The notes under the pieces: generated by a model
What the model was told of the DNA's origin: nothing
The model's input: only the letters and a program-made list of their open reading frames with translations
Databases searched by the model: none
From: Subdoligranulum variabile
Lineage (GTDB): Bacteria; Bacillota; Clostridia; Oscillospirales; Ruminococcaceae
Assembly: GCF_025152575.1 (NCBI RefSeq)
Contig: NZ_CP102293.1
Location: 496,001-560,000 of the forward strand
Direction of reading: 5' to 3'
DNA: 64,000 nucleotides
Translations under genes and position numbers: made by a program
Shown: in pieces, positions 55,228 through 64,000 of the stretch
Layout: each line of letters opens with the position of its first letter
Position numbering within the stretch: the first letter of the stretch is position 1

Positions 55228-56604
55228 TCAGATCAATCCCTGGACCAGGATCACCACGATGAGCAGGGGCAGCACAAACTGGAAGTAAGGTTTGAACACC
55301 CGGGGCATCTTGAGGCCCTTGCCGGTATTGCATTCCTCCATATATTTGTCGTAACCCCAGCCCCAGCGGCTGACGCAGAACAGCAGGTAGACCAGACTGC
55401 CGATGGGTAGCAGCAGGTTGGAGACCAGGAAATCTTCAATATCCAGGACCTGGCCGCCGGCGGGAGCGTTGGGCAGCGGTACCGAGAAGTACCACAGGTT
55501 GTACCCCAGCACGCAGGGCATACTGGCCAGCAGGATGAAGATGCCGCAGATCAGGGTCGCCTTTTTCCGGCTCCAGCCGAAGCAGTCGATACAGCTGGCC
55601 ATGATGTTCTCAAAGACCGCCAGCACGGTGGTGAAGCTGGCAAAGGTCATGAACAGGAAGAACAGCGCACCCCAGAGCCGGCCGCCGGCCATATTGACGA
55701 ACACCCGGGGCAGGGTCTGGAAGATCAGGGAGGGGCCGGCGTTTGGTTCCACCCCGAAGGCGAAGCAGGCCGGGAAGATGATGAGGCCAGCGCAGATCGC
55801 CACAAAGGTGTCCAGAGCACAGATGCGCACCGCCTCACCGGGAAGAGTGTGCTCCTTGGTCATGTAGCTGCCGAAGATCTCCATGGCCGCAATGCCGAGG
55901 CTCAGGGTAAAGAAGGACTGGTTCATGGCAGCCGTAATCACGTTGCCCAGTCCCACCTCGGAGGCCCGCTGGATGTCGGGCAGCAGGTAGAAGGCAAGGC
56001 CCTCCTTGCCGCCGTCCAGCATGATGCTGTTCACTGCCAGCACCACGATGAGGACCAGCAGGGCCAGCATCATCCACTTGGAAATGCGCTCCAGGCCTTT
56101 CTGCAGACCGAAGGAGCAGACCAGGAAGCCGCCCACCGTGATGATGGCCATAAAGACGGTCAGTTCCGCAGGGTTCGCCAGCATGGCGCTGAACACGCCG
56201 TCCACGGCGCTGTTATCAATGTCCGCAAAAGCGCCGGTGGCAAATTTGTAGAAGTAGTCCAGCATCCAGCCGGCTACGGTGGTGTAGTACATCATCAGCA
56301 CGCAGCAGCCGATGATGCAGAACCAGCCGTGAATGTGCCATTTGCTGTTTTTGGGCTCCAGCGCCTTGTAAGCGCCCACCGCACTCTGGCGGCTGGCACG
56401 GCCTACCGCCAGTTCCATCGTCAGCACCGGGACGCCCATGATGACCAGGAACAGCAGATAGAACAGGACAAAAATGCCGCCGCCATTGGCACCGGCCATC
56501 CAGGGGAACTTCCAGACGTTGCCAATGCCGATCGCACAGCCGGCGCTGACAAGAATGAAGCCGAGGCGGGAAGCAAAATGCTCCCGCTGTTTTTGAGATT
56601 CCAT
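55228..56604 (-). CDS. sodium-dependent transporter, NSS (SNF) family
   Basis: 458 aa from the ATG at 56604 (GAAGGATGG upstream). Helix 1 has the LeuT-family motif AIGIGNVWKFPWMAGANGGG with the unwound Na+/substrate segment. About eleven to twelve helices follow. The family takes up amino acids with Na+; the substrate cannot be read from sequence. The threonine aldolase is divergent from it and shares its promoter region. Confidence 0.93.
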   Translation of the reverse strand: MESQKQREHFASRLGFILVSAGCAIGIGNVWKFPWMAGANGGGIFVLFYLLFLVIMGVPVLTMELAVGRASRQSAVGAYKALEPKNSKWHIHGWFCIIGCCVLMMYYTTVAGWMLDYFYKFATGAFADIDNSAVDGVFSAMLANPAELTVFMAIITVGGFLVCSFGLQKGLERISKWMMLALLVLIVVLAVNSIMLDGGKEGLAFYLLPDIQRASEVGLGNVITAAMNQSFFTLSLGIAAMEIFGSYMTKEHTLPGEAVRICALDTFVAICAGLIIFPACFAFGVEPNAGPSLIFQTLPRVFVNMAGGRLWGALFFLFMTFASFTTVLAVFENIMASCIDCFGWSRKKATLICGIFILLASMPCVLGYNLWYFSVPLPNAPAGGQVLDIEDFLVSNLLLPIGSLVYLLFCVSRWGWGYDKYMEECNTGKGLKMPRVFKPYFQFVLPLLIVVILVQGLI

Positions 56605-56638
56605 AGTTTTTCCATCCTTCCTCACACGAATACGACCT

Positions 56639-56690
56639 ATTATAGCGCATTTTACCGGTCATTGCAAGGTTTACCCGTCTGTGGTATACT
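56639..56690. promoter_or_regulatory. overlapping divergent promoters sharing one -35 box
   Basis: The self-complementary hexamer TTGCAA (56662-56667) lies exactly 17 nt from TATACT (56685-56690) on the plus strand and exactly 17 nt from TATAAT on the minus strand (56639-56644). The same -35 would serve the aldolase and the NSS gene. Confidence 0.8.
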
Positions 56691-56721
56691 GTAAGATACG
56701 TGATCGAAAGGAGAATCCGAG

Positions 56722-57774
56722 ATGATTCGTTTTGAGTGTGACTACGGCGAGGGCGCAGCCCAACCCGTACTGGATCTTTTGCAGAAGACCAATCTGGAGC
56801 AGACCCCCGGCTACGGCGAGGACGACTACTGCGCTGCCGCCGCGGAGCAGATCCGCAGGCTGTGCGATGCGCCGGATGCGGCTGTACATTTTTTTGTAGG
56901 CGCCACCCAGGCCAATCTGACCGTCATTGACGCCGCGCTGAAGCCCTGGCAGGGCGTGCTCTGTGCCGAGACCGGCCACATCCATGTCCATGAGACCGGT
57001 TCCATCGAGGCTACCGGCCACAAATGTCTGGCACTGCCTGCCACCGCCGGCAAGATCACGGCGGCCCAGATCCGCGCAGCCGTTCAGTCTCACCGCGCCA
57101 ACCCCAGCCACGAGCATGAAGTCCAGCCCGGCATGGTCTACCTGTCCAATCCCACCGAGGTGGGCACCCTCTATTCCAAGGAGGAGCTCACCGACATTTC
57201 GGCCACCTGCTACGATCTGGGCCTTTACCTCTTTGTGGACGGCGCCCGGATGGCCTACGGCCTGATGAGCCCCGCCAACGACCTGAGCCTGCAGGATTAT
57301 GCCGCCCTGTGCGACGTCTTCTACCTGGGCGGCACCAAGTGCGGTGCCCTGTTCGGGGAGGCTGTGGTTATCACCAACGACGAGCTGAAGGAAGATTTCC
57401 GCTATGCCATCAAGCAGCACGGCGGCATGCTGGCCAAGGGCCGGCTGCTGGGCCTCCAGTTCCTGGCGCTGCTGGATGGCGAAGACGGCAGCGGCTGCAG
57501 CCCCTATTTCACACTGGCCGCCGAAGCCGACCGGCAGGCACTCTCCATCCGGGAAGCTTTCACCGCCAAGGGGATCGGGCTGCTGCATGACTCCCCCACC
57601 AACCAGCAGTTCTTTGTGCTGCCCGACGCCTGGTACGAGGCGCTCTCCCGCCAGTACGCCATGAGCGGCATGGGCAAACCCGACGATGACCACACAGCCG
57701 TACGCATCTGCACCAGCTGGGCGACCCGCCCTGAAGCCGTAGCGCAGCTGATTGCCGACGTCCAGAAACTGTAA
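56722..57774 (+). CDS. low-specificity L-threonine aldolase family enzyme
   Basis: 350 aa. PLP fold type I: FFVGATQANLTVIDAALKPW, ETGHIHVHETGSIEATGHKC, the PLP Asp in LFVDGARMAYGL, and the Schiff-base Lys in YLGGTKCGALFGE. The family cleaves threonine or allo-threonine to glycine and acetaldehyde, or related beta-hydroxy amino acids. AAAGGAG lies upstream of the ATG. Its promoter overlaps that of the amino-acid transporter, suggesting a functional link. Confidence 0.9.
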   Translation: MIRFECDYGEGAAQPVLDLLQKTNLEQTPGYGEDDYCAAAAEQIRRLCDAPDAAVHFFVGATQANLTVIDAALKPWQGVLCAETGHIHVHETGSIEATGHKCLALPATAGKITAAQIRAAVQSHRANPSHEHEVQPGMVYLSNPTEVGTLYSKEELTDISATCYDLGLYLFVDGARMAYGLMSPANDLSLQDYAALCDVFYLGGTKCGALFGEAVVITNDELKEDFRYAIKQHGGMLAKGRLLGLQFLALLDGEDGSGCSPYFTLAAEADRQALSIREAFTAKGIGLLHDSPTNQQFFVLPDAWYEALSRQYAMSGMGKPDDDHTAVRICTSWATRPEAVAQLIADVQKL

Positions 57775-57795
57775 GCTTCTTTATAAAAAGCAAAC

Positions 57796-57830
57796 GCACC
57801 TCAGCAGGAATCCCTGCCGGGGTGCTTTTT
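57796..57830 (+). terminator. terminator after the threonine aldolase gene
   Basis: GCACC/GGTGC and GCAGG/CCTGC pair around a 3x3 internal loop (57796-57825), followed by five T. Confidence 0.8.
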
Positions 57831-58032
57831 GCATCTATTCAAATGGCGCGGGGCGCCTTGTAGGTTGTCTGCGCCGGACCGGGGCAGCAGCTCCTCGCAT
57901 GGTCCGACGGCAGTAAATCGGGTCTTTGGTTGTTTACCTTGACTTCCCTTACAGTATACGCCCCGATTGTGTCCGAGTTGTCACACCATTTTGAACCTTT
58001 TATGAATTTGGAAAATTTCGGAAGCGGTATCC

Positions 58033-58731
58033 TCAGCGCTGGATCCGCTTGTCACAGCGGACCGCCAGCCGGGTGCCCACCGTCTGCAGGATCTGGACCA
58101 GAATGACCAGCAGTACGGTGGCGAAGATCTCCAGCACCACATTGAAGCGGTAATAGCCGTAGTTGATGGCGATCTTGCCCAGGCCGCCGCCGCCGATGAT
58201 GCCGGCCATGGCGCCGTAGCCCATGATGGTGGTGGTGGCAATGGTCACATTGGAGATCAGGCTGGGCATGCTCTCGGGGATCATGACCTTGGTGATGATC
58301 TGCAGCGGCGTAGCGCCCATGCTCTGGGCTGCCTCAATGACGCCGGCGTCCACCTCCCGGATGCTGGTCTCCACCAGGCGTGCCACAAAGGGGAAGGAGG
58401 CAATGACCAGCGGCACGATGGAAGCCGGGGTACCGATGGAAGTGCCCACGATGAGCCGGGACAGCGGGATGACGATGATCATCAGGATCAGGAAGGGCAC
58501 GCTGCGCAGCAGGTTGATGAAGGCATTGAGCACGCTCATGACCCAGCGGGGCAGCGGACGGACGCCGCCCTGCTCGCCGGTGACCAGGCAGACACCCAGC
58601 GGCAGGCCGATGACCAATGCCAGCAGCGTGGCAACGGCGGTGGACCAGATGGTCTCCCAGGTTTCAAAAGGTATGGTGGGCAAAATCTGCAGGAAGGTCG
58701 CCCACTCTTTGCTTGCCAGGAACTCTGCCAT
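58033..58731 (-). CDS. metI: methionine ABC transporter permease
   Basis: 232 aa with five to six hydrophobic helices. It contains the ABC permease loop EAAQSMGATPLQIITKVMIP and the typical MetI N-terminus (FETWETIWSTAVATLLALVI). It starts in a TGATG overlap with the metN stop. It is the last gene of metQ-metN-metI. Confidence 0.94.
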   Translation of the reverse strand: MAEFLASKEWATFLQILPTIPFETWETIWSTAVATLLALVIGLPLGVCLVTGEQGGVRPLPRWVMSVLNAFINLLRSVPFLILMIIVIPLSRLIVGTSIGTPASIVPLVIASFPFVARLVETSIREVDAGVIEAAQSMGATPLQIITKVMIPESMPSLISNVTIATTTIMGYGAMAGIIGGGGLGKIAINYGYYRFNVVLEIFATVLLVILVQILQTVGTRLAVRCDKRIQR

Positions 58732-59729
58732 CAGCCGTTCACCTCCTCATAGGTAATGCCGGGATAGTTCTTGATATAGTCGATGGCCTTGGCGGCGTTT
58801 TCATCGTCGGGCAAAGCCAGCAGCATGCTGCCCAGCGTCTGGCCGTTGACGATGCGGGTGTCCGCCGCCAGGATGGACACCAGGGCACCGCACTGGATGG
58901 CCAGGCTGGCCACCAGCGGTTTGTCGGTGGTCTGGGTGCCGTTGAAGGCGACCCGAACCAGCTTGTGGCCGGGCAGCGATTCCGCCTTGGGCGCTCCGGC
59001 CGGGTACACCAGCCGCTTGGCCGCTGCGGAGGTGGGATGGCTGAAGATAGCCTGCACGTCCCCTTCCTCCACCACGGTGCCCTCATCCAGAATGGCGACG
59101 CGGTTGCAAATCTCCTCCACCACGCTCATCTGATGGGTGATGACTACCACCGTGATGCCCAGTTCCCGGTTGATCTTCTGGATCAGCTGCAGGATGGCAT
59201 GGGTGGTGTTGGGGTCCAGGGCGCTGGTGGCCTCGTCGCAGAGCAGGACCTTGGGATCGGTGGCCAGGGCGCGGGCAATGGCGATGCGCTGTTTCTGGCC
59301 GCCCGAAAGCTGGGCCGGATAGGCTTCTGCCTTATCGGGCAGACCCACCAGTTCCAGCAGTTCCCGGGCGCGGGCTTCGGCTTTTTCTTTGGGCACCTTG
59401 GCCAGTTCCATCGGGAACATGATGTTGCGCAGGCAGGTGCGCTGCATCAGCAGATTGAACTGCTGGAAGATCATCGTGATGTCCCGCCGGGCCGCGCGCA
59501 GTTCCCCGGCGCTGAGCGTTTCCATCCGGCGGCCATCCACCGAAACGCTGCCCTCGTCGGGGCGCTCCAGCATATTGATGCAGCGCACCAGCGTAGACTT
59601 TCCGGCGCCGGACATACCGATGATGCCGTAGATGTCCCCGTCCCGGATGGTCAGGTTGATGTCGTTGAGCGCGACCACCGTGCCGCCCTTGGTGGCGAAA
59701 CGCTTGGTCAGGTGTTGCAATTCGATCAT
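58731..59729 (-). CDS. metN: methionine ABC transporter ATP-binding protein
   Basis: 332 aa. Walker A GMSGAGKST at residues 38-46, signature LSGGQKQRIAIARALATDPK, and Walker B VLLCDEATSALDP. The C-terminal 75 residues form a NIL-type domain (LVRVAFNGTQTTDKPLVASL), which in E. coli MetN binds methionine and inhibits transport. It lies 104 nt after metQ with a hairpin between. Confidence 0.96.
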   Translation of the reverse strand: MIELQHLTKRFATKGGTVVALNDINLTIRDGDIYGIIGMSGAGKSTLVRCINMLERPDEGSVSVDGRRMETLSAGELRAARRDITMIFQQFNLLMQRTCLRNIMFPMELAKVPKEKAEARARELLELVGLPDKAEAYPAQLSGGQKQRIAIARALATDPKVLLCDEATSALDPNTTHAILQLIQKINRELGITVVVITHQMSVVEEICNRVAILDEGTVVEEGDVQAIFSHPTSAAAKRLVYPAGAPKAESLPGHKLVRVAFNGTQTTDKPLVASLAIQCGALVSILAADTRIVNGQTLGSMLLALPDDENAAKAIDYIKNYPGITYEEVNG

Positions 59730-59750
59730 GGGTTTTCCCCCTCATTCTAC

Positions 59751-59784
59751 AATAGGGAACGGGCATGCTCGCCCGTTCCCTATT
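59751..59784 (-). promoter_or_regulatory. metQ-metN intergenic hairpin
   Basis: A perfect 14-bp stem (59751-59764 with 59771-59784), loop of six, without a T-run on the minus strand (TTGTAG follows). It is more likely an RNA-stability or partial-termination element than a full terminator. It could give more binding protein than ATPase. Confidence 0.6.
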
Positions 59785-59833
59785 GATTGTACCTTACCCG
59801 CCGTACGGTTGCAAGGTATTTCGTTATTTTTTA

Positions 59834-60724
59834 TCAGAAAAGGGCCACCACAGCACCGTCGTAGGTCTCGTTGATGAAGTCCTTGACCTCCTGGCTCTGA
59901 AGCGCCTTCAGCAGAGCCTGGATGGCGGGGTCGTTCTCGTTGCCTTCCTTGACGACGAGGACGTTGGCGTAGGTCTGGGCGGCCTCAGAGTTGGCATCCT
60001 CGGTGGCCAGGGCGTCGGTGCCTACCGAGAAGCCCGCTTCCAGCGCGTAGTTGCCGTTCATGACCGCGTAGTCCACGTCAGCCAGCGTGCGGGGCAGCTG
60101 GGCCGCTTCCAGCTCCTCCACCTGCACGTTGTGGGGATTCTCGGTGATGTCGTTGACGGTGGCAGTCAGACCGGCATCCTCCCGGATGGTGATGATGCCC
60201 TGGGCAGCCAGCAGCTGCAGGGCGCGGGCCTCGTTGGTGGTGTCGTTGGGCACCGCAATGACGGCGCCGTCGGGGATTTCATCCAGGGACTTGGTCTTGC
60301 CGGGGTAGATGCCCAGCGGCTCATAGTGGATATCGCCAACACTCACCAGATGAGTGCCGTTCTCCTCATTGAAGGAGTCCAGGTAGGGCTGATGCTGGAA
60401 GTAGTTGGCATCCACTTCCCCGCTCTCGGTCACCATGTTGGGCTGCACATAATCGCTGAATTCGATGATGTCCAGCGTGATGCCCTGCTCTGCCAGCAGG
60501 TCCTTGGCCACGTTGAGGATCTCGGCGTGGGGCGTCGGAGAGGCGGCTACCTTGATGGTGGTGCCGGCCAGATCACTGCCGGTCTCGGCGGTGGAGGCAG
60601 CTGCCTCGGAAGACGCAGCTTCGGACGAAGCGGCAGAGGACTGGGGAACCGAAGCGGTGGAGCCGCAGGCGGCCAGGCTCAGGGCCAGCGTACCGGCCAG
60701 GGCAGCAGAAATCAACTTTTTCAT
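59834..60724 (-). CDS. metQ: methionine-binding lipoprotein
   Basis: 296 aa. Lipoprotein signal with lipobox LSLAAC (Cys about residue 20), then a Ser/Ala-rich spacer. The NlpA/MetQ fold follows: TIKVAASPTPHAEILNVAKD, YVQPNMVTESGEVDANYFQH and VIAVPNDTTNEARALQLLAA. It delivers methionine, possibly also its sulfoxides or D-form, to MetNI. AAGGAGA precedes the ATG. A leader with an attenuator lies upstream. Confidence 0.95.
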   Translation of the reverse strand: MKKLISAALAGTLALSLAACGSTASVPQSSAASSEAASSEAAASTAETGSDLAGTTIKVAASPTPHAEILNVAKDLLAEQGITLDIIEFSDYVQPNMVTESGEVDANYFQHQPYLDSFNEENGTHLVSVGDIHYEPLGIYPGKTKSLDEIPDGAVIAVPNDTTNEARALQLLAAQGIITIREDAGLTATVNDITENPHNVQVEELEAAQLPRTLADVDYAVMNGNYALEAGFSVGTDALATEDANSEAAQTYANVLVVKEGNENDPAIQALLKALQSQEVKDFINETYDGAVVALF

Positions 60725-60793
60725 AATCAGGTTCTCCTTTTTTGTGTTTGGTTGGTGGTGTTTTTTCGTACGGGCAGGTCCCTCAACCTGCCG

Positions 60794-60838
60794 TCACATT
60801 CGTACACCGGGCTGTTTGTACACCGGACCACGTTCCAT
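60794..60838 (-). CDS. second small leader reading frame before metQ (14 aa)
   Basis: ATG at 60838 with an excellent AAGGAGG about eight bases upstream; it encodes MERGPVYKQPGVRM and ends at 60794. It lies between the attenuator terminator and metQ, with a repeated CCGGTGTAC inside. Its role is unknown; it might couple translation or be a second regulatory peptide. Confidence 0.4.
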   Translation of the reverse strand: MERGPVYKQPGVRM

Positions 60839-60866
60839 GATAAATTTCCTCCTTTTCGGATAGAAG

Positions 60867-60909
60867 CCAAAACAAAAGCGGGGCGTCGAAATGGCTTCGA
60901 CACCCCGCT
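60867..60909 (-). terminator. metQ attenuator terminator
   Basis: A 14-bp stem (60896-60909 with 60877-60890, one G-U pair), loop GCCAT, followed on the minus strand by TTTGTTTTGG. It sits 13 nt after the leader-peptide stop. Confidence 0.9.
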
Positions 60910-60921
60910 GTGTTTCTTTCC

Positions 60922-61017
60922 TTACGCGTTCAGATTTGCGCATGAGAAAGCAGGCACAGGCTGCCGAAGCAAACTGCACATGCACATCATCATACCAAAA
61001 CGGCTGCTGCAGTTCAT
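60922..61017 (-). CDS. Met/Cys-rich leader peptide of the metQNI operon
   Basis: 31 aa, ATG 61017, TAA 60922-60924, with GAGGAAAGGGG upstream. The peptide starts MNCSSRFGMMMCMCSLLR: four Met and two Cys within six residues (9-14). It is followed at once by a strong terminator, and the transcript starts only about 57 nt upstream. This is the classical layout of an amino-acid attenuation leader. The CTT CGG codons (17-18) lie in a segment able to pair with the terminator. Confidence 0.8.
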   Translation of the reverse strand: MNCSSRFGMMMCMCSLLRQPVPAFSCANLNA

Positions 61018-61075
61018 TGTCCGTGTACCCCTTTCCTCACAAATCCGATAAGCCCAATCGGCTTCTCTGGGTAAG

Positions 61076-61104
61076 AGTATAGCGCCCCACAATGTATATG
61101 TCAA
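61076..61104 (-). promoter_or_regulatory. promoter of the metQNI operon
   Basis: On the minus strand TTGACA (61099-61104), 17 nt, TATACT (61076-61081). Near-consensus, as expected if control is exerted by attenuation. Confidence 0.88.
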
Positions 61105-61172
61105 CACTTTTTGCATAAAACAGGGCATTTTTCGGAATTCTATACAAACAAAGGCAAAAATCCGCAAAAGGG

Positions 61173-61216
61173 TTGCCAATTTCCTACAAATATGGTATGG
61201 TAATAGTAATCTACTA
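61173..61216 (+). promoter_or_regulatory. promoter of the Rrf2 gene with candidate operator
   Basis: TTGCCA (61173-61178), 17 nt, TATGGT (61196-61201). Just downstream, TAGTA-atc-TACTA (61204-61216) is a perfect dyad over the likely start of transcription, a suitable autoregulatory site. Confidence 0.55.
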
Positions 61217-61236
61217 CACAGAAAGAGGAACCCTGC

Positions 61237-61653
61237 ATGAAATTTTCGACCCGCGACCGCTATGCTTTGCGACTGATGGTGGAGCTGGCCAACCACGGCG
61301 ACGGGCTGGTCCCCCTGAAGGAAATCAGCGACACCCAGCAGATCAGCCTGAAATATCTGGAACAGATCATCACGCCCCTGGCCAAAGCTGGACTGGTGAC
61401 CAGCGTGCGTGGTGCCCAGGGCGGCTACCGTCTGGCCCGCCCCGAGGAAGAAATTACCGCCGGGGAGATCCTGCGCGCCGTGGAAGGAGAACTGACCGCC
61501 ATTCCCTGCTTGGGCGCCAATATGGAATGCCCCCGCCGGGATCAGTGCCAGACCATCGGGTTCTGGTGCGGGCTGAACGATCTGATCAACCAGTATGTGG
61601 ACGGTGTGACACTGGCCGCCCTGCGAGCCCAGAAAGGCGCCGCTTTGGAATAA
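61237..61653 (+). CDS. Rrf2 family regulator with three-cysteine cluster
   Basis: 138 aa. The winged helix is at the N-terminus (FSTRDRYALRLMVELANHGD), with QQISLKYLEQIITPLAKAGL and SVRGAQGGYRLARP. Cysteines in IPCLGANMECPRRDQCQTIG (Cx6Cx5C) resemble the Fe-S ligand set of IscR, though the spacing differs by one from IscR. CymR, the cysteine regulator, belongs to the same family but lacks such a cluster. It is divergent from metQNI. Confidence 0.9.
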   Translation: MKFSTRDRYALRLMVELANHGDGLVPLKEISDTQQISLKYLEQIITPLAKAGLVTSVRGAQGGYRLARPEEEITAGEILRAVEGELTAIPCLGANMECPRRDQCQTIGFWCGLNDLINQYVDGVTLAALRAQKGAALE

Positions 61654-61663
61654 CAGCAAGCAG

Positions 61664-61707
61664 AAAAGCCCTCCGCAATCTCTGATGAGAACGCGGAGGG
61701 CTTTTTT
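61664..61707. terminator. bidirectional terminator between the Rrf2 and SGNH genes
   Basis: A 13-bp stem (61664-61676 with 61693-61705), 16-nt loop, A-run before and six T after. Confidence 0.88.
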
Positions 61708-62990
61708 CAGCTTTGCGCCTGGTCCTGCACCGCATTGGGATCTGCGGTGCTCGTATTTTCCGTAGTCGTTGTAGTGCTGGTCTGATCGGTAGTCGGGGTG
61801 GTATCCGGAACCGACTCCGTCGGTGCCGGAGCCTGGGTCGGATCGGGCACCGGCGTCTGCGTCGGGTCCGGAACCGGGGTCGGTGTGGCCGGCACCGGCG
61901 TCGGTTCCGGCGTAGCCGGCACGGGGGTTGCCTGCTGCACAGGCGGTTCGGTCGGCGCCGGAGTCTCCACCACGACGGGTTCCTGGTAGACCGACTCCGA
62001 CTGCGGTGCCTCGGTAGGCGCCGTGGAGCTGGCCGACGAGGTCGTGGTCACATTGGACGCAGTGGAAACCGAAACATCCTTATCGCCGATATGTTTGGCC
62101 ACATTCTTTACGGTGGGACGATCATCCTCGGTGATATAGCTGTGGGTGCGCACATACTCGAACAGGTCATCCATAGCAGCCTTGGTCAGATGGATGCCGT
62201 CGCTGGACTCCACATAGCCGCTCTTGGCATAACCGGAGGAGGAATCTTTGAGCACTTCGGCGCTGTTGAGGAACTTCCAGCCCTTTTCCTTGCACATTTC
62301 CACCAGGGCCTTGTTATATTCGTCCACCTGGGACTGGGTCAGGTTCTGGTTGGAGTGCACCTTTCCCAACGGCGGAATGGAGTTGACAATGATGTCCACG
62401 CTGGGGTAGGCATCCACAATGGACTCGATGCCCTCCTGATAGGCCTCCACAAAACTGTCGGCGGAATAGCTGGGGCTCAGATCGTTGGTACCGAAGGTCA
62501 GGATCACCCGTTTGGGCTGCATCAGCGAAACCGCCTTGGCCATTGTCACATAGTTGGAATAGCCCTGCAGCTGCACACAGGCATAGGTGGCCAGGGAACG
62601 GGCGCTCATGCCCACCGAACCGATGGCGTTGTCATAGGTACAGTAATCAAACATCCGGTACATACGGGCCGTGTTGCTGTCCCCCAGGAAGAGGGTTTCA
62701 TCCACGTATTCCTGGCCGGCATCGTCGCTCTTCTCCAGAATTGTGGAGGAATACTGGGTCTTGTCAATGGTGTTCTGGTCCTTGTCGTAACCGCTCTCGG
62801 TCACAAGGGATTCGCTCTCAGCCGAGTCGCTGTCGGCATCCTGGCCCAGGCTGTCCAGCCCGCCCACCAGCACAAAGGAGATTGCCACACTGATCAGCAG
62901 CATCAGGCTGCACAATCCCATCACAATGTACATTTTGCTGCGTATATCCAACGGCTCTTTTGCCGCCTGCTTCTTCTTTTTGCGTGCCAT
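61707..62990 (-). CDS. membrane-anchored SGNH/GDSL hydrolase with Pro/Thr-rich tail
   Basis: 427 aa. A lysine-rich cytoplasmic start and one transmembrane helix (MYIVMGLCSLMLLISVAISF), then an SGNH domain at about residues 95-280. It holds the nucleophile Ser in TLFLGDSNTARMYR, Asn in TFGTNDLSPSYS and the Asp-x-x-His in SSDGIHLTKAAM. The last 130 residues are Pro/Thr/Ser-rich. Possible activity is de-acetylation of cell-wall or exopolysaccharide; this is inference. Confidence 0.85.
   Translation of the reverse strand: MARKKKKQAAKEPLDIRSKMYIVMGLCSLMLLISVAISFVLVGGLDSLGQDADSDSAESESLVTESGYDKDQNTIDKTQYSSTILEKSDDAGQEYVDETLFLGDSNTARMYRMFDYCTYDNAIGSVGMSARSLATYACVQLQGYSNYVTMAKAVSLMQPKRVILTFGTNDLSPSYSADSFVEAYQEGIESIVDAYPSVDIIVNSIPPLGKVHSNQNLTQSQVDEYNKALVEMCKEKGWKFLNSAEVLKDSSSGYAKSGYVESSDGIHLTKAAMDDLFEYVRTHSYITEDDRPTVKNVAKHIGDKDVSVSTASNVTTTSSASSTAPTEAPQSESVYQEPVVVETPAPTEPPVQQATPVPATPEPTPVPATPTPVPDPTQTPVPDPTQAPAPTESVPDTTPTTDQTSTTTTTENTSTADPNAVQDQAQS
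61745..61985 (-). repeat. low-complexity PTP-coding tail of the SGNH protein
   Basis: Repeated codons for Pro, Thr and Asp give runs such as TPVPATPEPTPVPATPTPVP and near-identical PVPDPTQ units. Similar composition to the linker of the GH25 protein at 5.8 kb, which suggests both span the cell wall. Confidence 0.7.
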
Positions 62991-63116
62991 TGCATTTCCT
63001 TTCGCGCAGAATGTTCCATCTCACCTTGTTTTTGGATGCATACAGTGGCTATTGTACACTATTTTTGGCCGAAGCGCCAGTCTTTTCTCAATTTTTACAT
63101 ATTTTAGTGTCAAAAA

Positions 63117-63146
63117 AACAGCCCTCTGCCGAAGCAGAGAGCTGTT
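63117..63146 (-). terminator. terminator of the ECF S-component gene
   Basis: A 13-bp stem (63117-63129 with 63134-63146), one mismatch or wobble, tetraloop CGAA, followed on the minus strand by seven T. Confidence 0.85.
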
Positions 63147-63150
63147 TCTG

Positions 63151-63804
63151 TTATTCTTTGGGCAACAGATGCGCCCGCCGCAGCGCCGGTTCCAGCGCCA
63201 GATACAATACCACTGCACAGACCGTGGAAAGCAGCGAGTTAACCAGCGTCACACCGCCGGTGATCTTGATGAAGACCGTGGCAACCTCCACGGGCTGTCC
63301 GAAAATGTACCGGTCCCGGAAATATCCAACCAGAGGATCGGTGAAAACATTCACCAGCAGGCCGCTGAAAGCGCTGAGGGTCACCCGGGCCAGATAACGG
63401 CCTTTGCCATCCTGCCGATGGCTGCGCAGGTGCAGCAGCCGGTGGGCTATCAGACCGCAGACAATGCCGATGATGAACTTGAGGATGAAGGTGGTGAAGG
63501 CATAGCCGGGGTCACCAGCGATCACATCCGCCAGCGCCAGGCCAATGGCACCCGCCAGACCGCCCGAAACGCCGTCCAGCAGCATAGCCGTCAATGCCGT
63601 GAAGGTATTGCCCAGATGAAAAGAGGACCCGCCCGCGAAGGGGATCCGGAAAAACTCATAGGCCACAAAACTCAGGGCAGCCATCACACCCACCAGACTG
63701 ATCCGCTGCACCGTAAACTTGGTCCGCGTCAGTGCCGCAATCAGCAGGGCCACCGCCACTGCCCCAAACAGCAGCAGCCACATCGTTGCCGTATCCATAT
63801 CCAA
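63151..63804 (-). CDS. ECF transporter S component, substrate unknown
   Basis: 217 aa with about six hydrophobic segments. The block IPFAGGSSFHLGNTFTALTA, followed by LLDGVSGGLAGAIGLALADV, is typical of the ECF S-component superfamily (vitamin or metal uptake with EcfAA'T). No riboswitch is visible in the short leader, so the substrate cannot be inferred. The GntR-type gene is divergent. Confidence 0.8.
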   Translation of the reverse strand: MDMDTATMWLLLFGAVAVALLIAALTRTKFTVQRISLVGVMAALSFVAYEFFRIPFAGGSSFHLGNTFTALTAMLLDGVSGGLAGAIGLALADVIAGDPGYAFTTFILKFIIGIVCGLIAHRLLHLRSHRQDGKGRYLARVTLSAFSGLLVNVFTDPLVGYFRDRYIFGQPVEVATVFIKITGGVTLVNSLLSTVCAVVLYLALEPALRRAHLLPKE

Positions 63805-63842
63805 AACACTCCTTTATCGCTTTCCTTCCCGTAAAGGGATGG

Positions 63843-63871
63843 TTGACAAATTCTTTCCTGCAGGGTATGCT
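63843..63871 (+). promoter_or_regulatory. promoter of the GntR-type gene
   Basis: TTGACA (63843-63848), 17 nt, TATGCT (63866-63871). A TATAAT on the minus strand (63875-63880) may be the -10 of the ECF gene, with a poor -35. Confidence 0.65.
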
Positions 63872-63949
63872 CCTATTATAGCGTTTTCTGGCTCCGGATA
63901 AATGCCCAGTTTTTGATTTTTTTATGGTGCCAGTTTGGAGGAAAATTCC

Positions 63950-64000
63950 ATGATTGAATTGAAGTCCGAGGAGAAAGCCCCACTGTACGAGCAGCTCTAT
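63950..64000 (+). CDS. GntR family regulator, N-terminus only
   Basis: Only 17 codons are in the window: MIELKSEEKAPLYEQLY, with GGAGG at 63937-63941. An aligned LYEQLY after a short acidic lead is typical of GntR winged-helix N-termini, including MocR/PdxR-type fusions to aminotransferases. The product type is therefore a guess from a short piece. Confidence 0.55.
   Translation, partial: MIELKSEEKAPLYEQLY

Follow-up and report, generated by a model that had tools for sequence, protein, structure and literature searches.

A putative Met/Cys-codon attenuator in front of metQNI in Subdoligranulum variabile and similar leaders at other clostridial metQ loci

Introduction

In the attenuators of the trp, his, leu, thr, and ilv operons, a leader ORF carries a run of cognate codons, the antiterminator strand is located downstream in the ORF, and an intrinsic terminator follows. 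The leader of the metQNI operon of the gut bacterium Subdoligranulum variabile described here resembles these systems in its codon run, in the antiterminator strand just downstream of the run, in its terminator, and in its position before a cognate operon, but it combines Met with Cys codons and precedes an operon for uptake. In addition, the untranslated leader is ON in our folding model, whereas untranslated trp leaders terminate, a behavior that is typical of such attenuators but does not define them.

The mechanism class is known. For the Met/Cys specificity there is a single precedent, itself a prediction: the metL leader (...CMCRRMCAF) of Streptomyces lividans, a predicted attenuator before metNIQ (PMC8079986). 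According to the accessible part of that report, metL is, like the present leader, a short Met/Cys-containing leader directly before metNIQ, but its mRNA is leaderless and, in the authors' description, has no typical Rho-independent terminator; the present leader possesses a Shine-Dalgarno (SD)-led ORF, a strong terminator, a complementary antiterminator, and conservation in Clostridia. Cys codons in an upstream ORF (uORF) are also a feature of the actinobacterial cys-operon leaders (PMC1262725) and of uORFC-8-2, which precedes cysS in Rhodobacterales and has a U-run terminator (PMC8632094). The accessible parts of these two reports mention no Met component, and the genes and phyla differ from ours; the actinobacterial survey states, in the same part, that its authors saw no conservation of RNA structure upstream of methionine operons (PMC1262725). 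The histidine leader peptides of bacilli, as far as the accessible part of the report goes, are likewise Firmicutes leader peptides at genes that carry a T-box elsewhere, but they contain His codons and precede hisS or hisZ (PMC2965389). Among the papers listed from the open-access literature, a scope outside of which most subscription papers and all preprints fall, we found no Met leader in Firmicutes, nor any account of the clostridial breadth of terminator-bearing leaders or of the second uORF (ORF2) described below.

Here, we report a computational analysis of the leader in a 64,000-nucleotide stretch of the genome (contig NZ_CP102293.1, positions 496,001 to 560,000), hereafter called the window, and of its counterparts at other metQ loci.

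Results

The window genome is a single contig of 3.24 Mb, and its closest metQ relatives, among the matches listed, are those of Gemmiger. MetQ, MetN, and MetI scored above the Pfam gathering scores but under the curated cut-offs of the best NCBIfam methionine-transporter models; the NIL and Lipoprotein_9 domains fit a MetNIQ transporter, with methionine as the presumed substrate. The features of the locus are summarized in Table 1. The strong promoter pointed out in a preliminary description lies on the minus strand, matches the consensus at 11 of 12 positions, and is the top one of the eight promoter-like sites listed in 56000-64000. The 31-codon frame (ORF1) with a ribosome site, claimed in the same description, was confirmed, with GGAAAGGGG preceding its ATG. 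The terminator proposed to follow ORF1 is also present, but the distance from the stop codon to the stem is 12 nt and not 13 nt. The complementary segments, GCTTCGG (60970-60964) and TCGAAGC (60900-60894), are found exactly where they had been placed, and the pairing can be longer: GCTTCGGCA (60970-60962) pairs with TGTCGAAGC (60902-60894) and 60960-60956 with 60908-60904, giving 14 pairs in total. The window leader folds more strongly than expected by chance (z = -4.39). As had been noted, neither a SAM riboswitch nor a T-box is present; the Rfam search of 60600-61350 detected none. Rfam matches of the leader to SNORD126, mir-1253, and P31 were weak, all under the gathering scores, and were rejected; the ORF1 peptide matched no NCBIfam or Pfam model.

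Table 1. Features of the metQNI locus, in window coordinates
Feature	Position	Strand	Remarks
Rrf2-family regulator (divergent)	61237..61653	+	IscR/CymR-like; under both equivalog cut-offs
-35 hexamer	61104-61099	-	TTGACA
-10 hexamer	61081-61076	-	TATACT; 17-nt spacer to -35
Putative transcription start	near 61069	-	leaves ~52 nt of leader before ORF1
ORF1 (leader peptide)	61017-60922	-	MNCSSRFGMMMCMCSLLRQPVPAFSCANLNA; 31 codons + TAA
Putative regulatory codons 9-14 of ORF1	60976..60993	-	ATG ATG ATG TGC ATG TGC
Putative antiterminator, 5' strand	60956..60970	-	in ORF1; GCTTCGGCA, one unpaired base, CCTGT
Putative antiterminator, 3' strand	60894..60908	-	also terminator 5' arm
Intrinsic terminator hairpin	60909-60877	-	14-15 bp; 15 pairs by scan, 9 G-C
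T-rich tail of terminator	60876-60867	-
ORF2 (second conserved uORF)	60794-60838	-	MERGPVYKQPGVRM; strong AAGGAGG site; between terminator and metQ
metQ	59834..60724	-	methionine-binding lipoprotein (Lipoprotein_9); NCBIfam/Pfam
metN	58731..59729	-	ATPase with NIL domain; NCBIfam/Pfam
metI	58033..58731	-	permease; NCBIfam/Pfam

The first set of metQ loci comprised the best 80 of at least 449 relatives: 10 loci of the Gemmiger group (L009-L018) and 70 non-Gemmiger loci. The leader is present in nine of the Gemmiger loci (L010-L018); the tenth, L009, allows no judgment, as its sequence begins at metQ. The same layout is found upstream of the Gemmiger metQ loci, and a long terminator stem is kept in each, while its sequence differs. 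The start of the same Rrf2 gene was seen by eye in several of these loci. The preliminary description had named, as a test, conservation of the Met/Cys run in relatives together with compensatory changes in the stems. The run is kept: the codons M9, M10, M11, C12, and M13 do not vary in any of the 12 distinct Gemmiger-group leaders, and codon 14 is Cys in eight and Tyr in four of them. The residues of ORF1 past the run are also conserved in Gemmiger. The compensatory changes turned out to be weak in Gemmiger, with one pair exchanged on both sides, and better in one motif-anchored subgroup of other Clostridia, as detailed below.

An SD-led ORF2 with the core [GS][PS]-x-[YC]-[KR]-QPG-[VI]-RM followed by UGA, UGU, or UGC occurs in 11 of the 12 Gemmiger-group leaders; ORF2 is absent in the remaining one, L015. 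Its third codon positions vary (GTA/GTC/GTG, GGT/GGC, and AAA/AAG), so that the ORF2 peptide seems to be under selection, and CGA-ATG-TG is invariant. Among the Gemmiger-group leaders, no conserved RNA structure was found around ORF2, and the downstream sequence is not conserved. With one mismatch allowed, the motif matched 5 of 138 family genomes; a second match in the own genome lies inside a long coding frame and was rejected.

Met/Cys-rich SD-led short ORFs (sORFs) were also found at the 5' end of the met operon in 17 of the 70 non-Gemmiger loci from the best 80 of at least 449 (L021, L024, L025, L031, L035, L036, L046, L048, L051, L052, L059, L061, L063, L065, L066, L069, and L075). This count is a lower bound, because at least 300 nt precede the first gene (by the operon rule) in only 50 of the 70 loci and less than 300 nt in the other 20. 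When the SD demand was dropped, the other 53 loci yielded 17 Met/Cys-rich short frames, seven sense and ten antisense, none of which was seen at a met operon start. Two sORFs were rejected as not being located at an operon 5' end: one in L078, inside a long frame reading as metN by eye, and one in L024 at 1001/1007. In L035 (2079-2450), two tandem Met/Cys leaders, each with its own terminator, precede one met operon.

A second set consisted of 60 of 68 metQ matches from another clostridial family, probably Lachnospiraceae, eight matches being left out. Counted by position upstream of metQ, Met/Cys-rich SD-led sORFs occurred in sense in 20 of the 60 loci and in antisense in none of the 60. Some genomes occur in both sets; by eye, no leader peptide of one set recurs in the other. 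These leaders had been selected on Met/Cys content; a terminator follows the leader in 33 of 33 cases (14 Gemmiger rows, a metF leader described below, and 18 leaders of the 17 loci) and, by rule, in 19 of the 20 second-set leaders, the exception, L244, showing a shorter hairpin. The leader peptides of other clades have the Met/Cys composition in common, with unrelated sequences. Apart from these features, an operator-like inverted repeat like CCTATTGACATAGTAGG was seen by eye over the -35 box in several leaders of the second clade (L063, L075, L244, L246, L261, and L268). Six metQ matches (L211-L216) belong to open frames of 570-668 aa, a length that hints at fusion of MetQ to a further part of the transporter.

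A composition-blind test covered every SD-led sORF of 10-50 codons with a terminator-like stem shortly behind it at 130 non-Gemmiger loci, namely 70 of the best 80 of at least 449 and the 60 of the second set, with some genomes counted twice. At least five Met/Cys in 10 residues were present in 26 of 48 sense frames and in none of the 14 antisense frames, a small sample. The enrichment of sense over antisense was 5.1-fold for Met and 3.3-fold for Cys, with Asp (2.6-fold) next, and the pair of Met and Cys ranked first among 190 residue pairs. At least three non-start Met residues are found in 37 of the 38 non-Gemmiger leaders and at least three Cys in 32 of the 38; Cys outnumber non-start Met in L066, L242, and L268. 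Met is the constant element of the leaders, with a probable contribution of Cys, and the joint presence of both codons suggests that a shortage of either may open the operon. In the same 38 leaders, some of which are related, the enrichment of the Arg-Met dipeptide was marginal (p 0.04), and CGA accounted for 14 of 31 Arg codons before Met versus 12 of 100 other Arg codons. The codon pair CGA-ATG recurs in L046, L048, L059, L063, L066, L075, and ORF2 of the window.

The part of the ORF past the first regulatory codons was compared with the 5' arm and loop of the terminator. For the window, where the target also included AACACA just before the stem, the energy was -28.2 kcal/mol; 300 codon shuffles gave -18.2 (p 0.003) and 300 dinucleotide shuffles -19.4 (p 0.010). 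Among the 14 Gemmiger rows (12 distinct), p was below 0.05 in nine by codon shuffle and seven by dinucleotide shuffle; the other five and seven rows, respectively, fell short of it, L012 and L013 being clearly negative. Complementarity reached p<0.05 in 20 of the 38 non-Gemmiger leaders, and 0.01 in 11, and fell short of 0.05 in 18; L244, whose short hairpin escaped the terminator rule, is outside this count. In a swap control, 13 leaders had their own terminator among the best 10% of all 38, and for five leaders it was the best. Since related leaders are not independent, combined p-values are overstated.

Pairing in Gemmiger was found in 83.3% of cells in register versus 33-57% when slid. One of the 14 pairs changed on both sides, a number that 498 of 500 shuffles reach (average 2.0), whereas the covariation score was matched by only 5 of 500 shuffles; we regard the antiterminator covariation in Gemmiger as weak. 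A Cys-Arg-Met type subgroup of 12 leaders, anchored on TCCC[GA][GA] in the ORF and [CT][CT]GGGA downstream, showed 84% in-register pairing versus 36-54% when slid. Nine contiguous pairs are present in all 12 leaders, with two-sided exchanges at four; the motif anchors impose four of the nine and nearly impose two, so that only three pairs are free evidence. In general, the shared arm is constrained by the terminator's own stem, and the covariation of the antiterminator is therefore not fully separate evidence.

To model the effect of the ribosome, a footprint of 28 nt was masked and the RNA was folded as far as the terminator loop; for the window, the score was taken from the seven arm nucleotides that pair best. 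When the A site was placed at codon 9 or 10, these nucleotides paired with the ORF at 0.99; the value was 0.55 for codon 11, 0.18 for the stop codon, and 0.99 without a ribosome. The whole-arm means of 52 leaders (all rows, duplicates included) were 0.56 for the stalled, 0.30 for the stop, and 0.50 for the free state. The stalled value exceeded the stop value in 44 of the 52, although the stalled state has an advantage here, being represented by the highest of the values for three stall positions; in several other leaders the two are equal because the stop codon is located far downstream. The predicted behavior of the window leader fits a switch that would be ON upon stalling, OFF upon complete translation, and ON when untranslated. 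Since one and the same enzyme charges initiator and elongator tRNA-Met, an untranslated leader that is ON, as predicted here, would be sensible for methionine.

At the gathering thresholds of Rfam, T-boxes (RF00230) were found near the met operon start in L028, L058, L072, L084, and L088, and SAM riboswitches (RF00162) in L042, L070, and L071; no match to either was obtained in the window, in the scanned leader loci, or in the 60 second-set loci. None of these eight of the 130 metQ loci has a leader. Given 8 positives for the SAM riboswitch or T-box and 37 for the leader among the 130 loci, mutual exclusion of the two kinds of element is suggestive but not strong; by these methods, many metQ loci have none of the three. 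The own genome contains one SAM riboswitch, before a gene reading as metK by eye, and 10 T-box matches elsewhere, some under the gathering score; its own metF and metA sit directly behind other coding frames by eye.

A first pattern search gave 23 matches, including six Gemmiger-type leaders and one metF leader; the remaining 16 were not accepted as leaders by frame or peptide. The metF leader, MGRFGQNSNMMMCMCGMMMRSALFGVLRSRRV, followed by a terminator, is located in another genus of the same family, in a genome (G084, 89% complete) without a MetQ match. No leader was found before metF or metA in 30 + 30 loci of the order (the best-scoring of 60 and 75 genomes matched). An exact search for MCMCRM in 250 genomes found six matches: three are second-set leaders (G808, G764, and G691), one precedes a gene reading as metN by eye (L303), one precedes a cyclase-family gene (L331), and one (L315) is, according to the scan, not within an sORF. 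With one mismatch, 62 of the 250 genomes matched, and a reversed control pattern also matched many; only exact matches or those in an SD-led sORF were therefore considered. The follow-up, which covered 30 loci and three stretches as part of all matches, found a one-mismatch sORF with a terminator two genes before an NMT1-type binding protein, possibly of a sulfonate transporter (L327), and another two genes before an Rrf2 gene (L302). The leaders in L331, L327, and L302 hint at a wider sulfur regulon.

Discussion

The comparison among relatives, with MMMCM codons invariant in 12 of 12 leaders and Met/Cys leaders with terminators in other Clostridia, argues for the ribosome-mediated attenuator responding to Met and/or Cys that the preliminary description had proposed. 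We consider it very probable that a ribosome-mediated transcription attenuator precedes metQNI and senses Met-tRNA, with a contribution of Cys-tRNA. This judgment is based mainly on the sense and antisense counts of the second set (20/60 versus 0/60), the complementarity (20/38), the blind test (26/48 versus 0/14), and the invariant codons (12/12). What we observed directly is the anatomy of the leader, the conservation of this anatomy, the lack of such a leader at the loci where a SAM riboswitch or T-box was detected, and the statistical complementarity.

From these, we infer translation of ORF1, stalling, read-through, and the nature of the signal as follows. Transcription would start some 52 nt ahead of ORF1, which a ribosome would translate behind the polymerase. 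When charged tRNA-Met and tRNA-Cys are ample, the ribosome would pass the MMMCMC codons and cover GCTTCGGCA, the terminator would form, and transcription would stop. When charged tRNA-Met or tRNA-Cys is scarce, the ribosome would stall early in the run; in the model, one of codons 9-11 then occupies the A site. The stalled ribosome would leave GCTTCGGCA free to pair with the nascent 5' arm of the terminator, and the polymerase would enter metQNI. Because many relatives have the same design, the operon probably opens when ribosomes run short of Met or Cys.

The signal might instead be cysteine, or sulfur status in general, with Met codons that are merely incidental. Actinobacteria are reported to have Cys leaders, in the part of the survey accessible to us (PMC1262725), 32 of the 38 non-Gemmiger leaders contain at least three Cys, which outnumber non-start Met in L066, L242, and L268, and an MCMC leader lies two genes before the NMT1-type binding protein of a possible sulfonate transporter. 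Such a signal is nonetheless unlikely, since 37 of the 38 leaders contain at least three non-start Met, 4 of 12 Gemmiger-group leaders have lost the Cys of codon 14 whereas all 12 keep the four Met codons of the run, and the leaders are mostly located before the methionine transporter (partly a search bias) and, in one case, before metF. The conserved post-run residues of ORF1 and the conserved ORF2 core in Gemmiger would suit a nascent-peptide arrest of the SecM or TnaC type, in which the peptide itself and not the codon supply stalls the ribosome. Other clades, however, keep only the Met/Cys richness of ORF1 and no fixed peptide, which fits tRNA supply better and makes arrest very improbable.

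The peptides of other clades, alike in composition and not in sequence, also speak against ORF1 being a small functional protein, for example a Met/Cys metal-binding one, whose transcript is merely ended by the terminator. In favor of such a protein, residues of Met and Cys runs typically bind copper. The complementarity of the ORF RNA to the terminator and the occupation of the same place by SAM riboswitches or T-boxes at other metQ loci nevertheless leave the functional protein an extremely remote prospect. The Rrf2/IscR/CymR-like gene, which is divergent from the window leader and whose start is seen in several Gemmiger loci, is a possible additional control of metQNI. That it controls the promoter while the leader acts as a constitutive partial terminator is quite improbable, because neither the conservation of the Met/Cys codons nor the complementarity would then be explained; Rrf2 control and attenuation are mutually compatible.

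The attenuator may also be part of a two-layer checkpoint for sulfur amino acids, an extension that we regard as doubtful. Because the stalled and the uninitiated leader both favor the antiterminator, ORF1 would read three tRNAs, elongator Met-tRNA, Cys-tRNA, and initiator Met-tRNA. After read-through, the ORF2 peptide ...QPG[VI]RM with the following UGN would act as a nascent-chain or Cys-codon stall gating the translation of metQ, and a related class of Met/Cys leaders in Clostridia and Actinobacteria would replace SAM riboswitches and T-boxes at metNIQ.

The silence of Rfam, NCBIfam, and Pfam at the window leader implies that such elements are easily overlooked. Methionine is a special amino acid in that it also starts every protein. 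If our reading is true, methionine uptake in Clostridia would be subject to a third kind of control at the RNA level, beside the SAM riboswitches and T-boxes that precede this operon elsewhere, and in this third kind translation itself would serve as the measure of tRNA charging.
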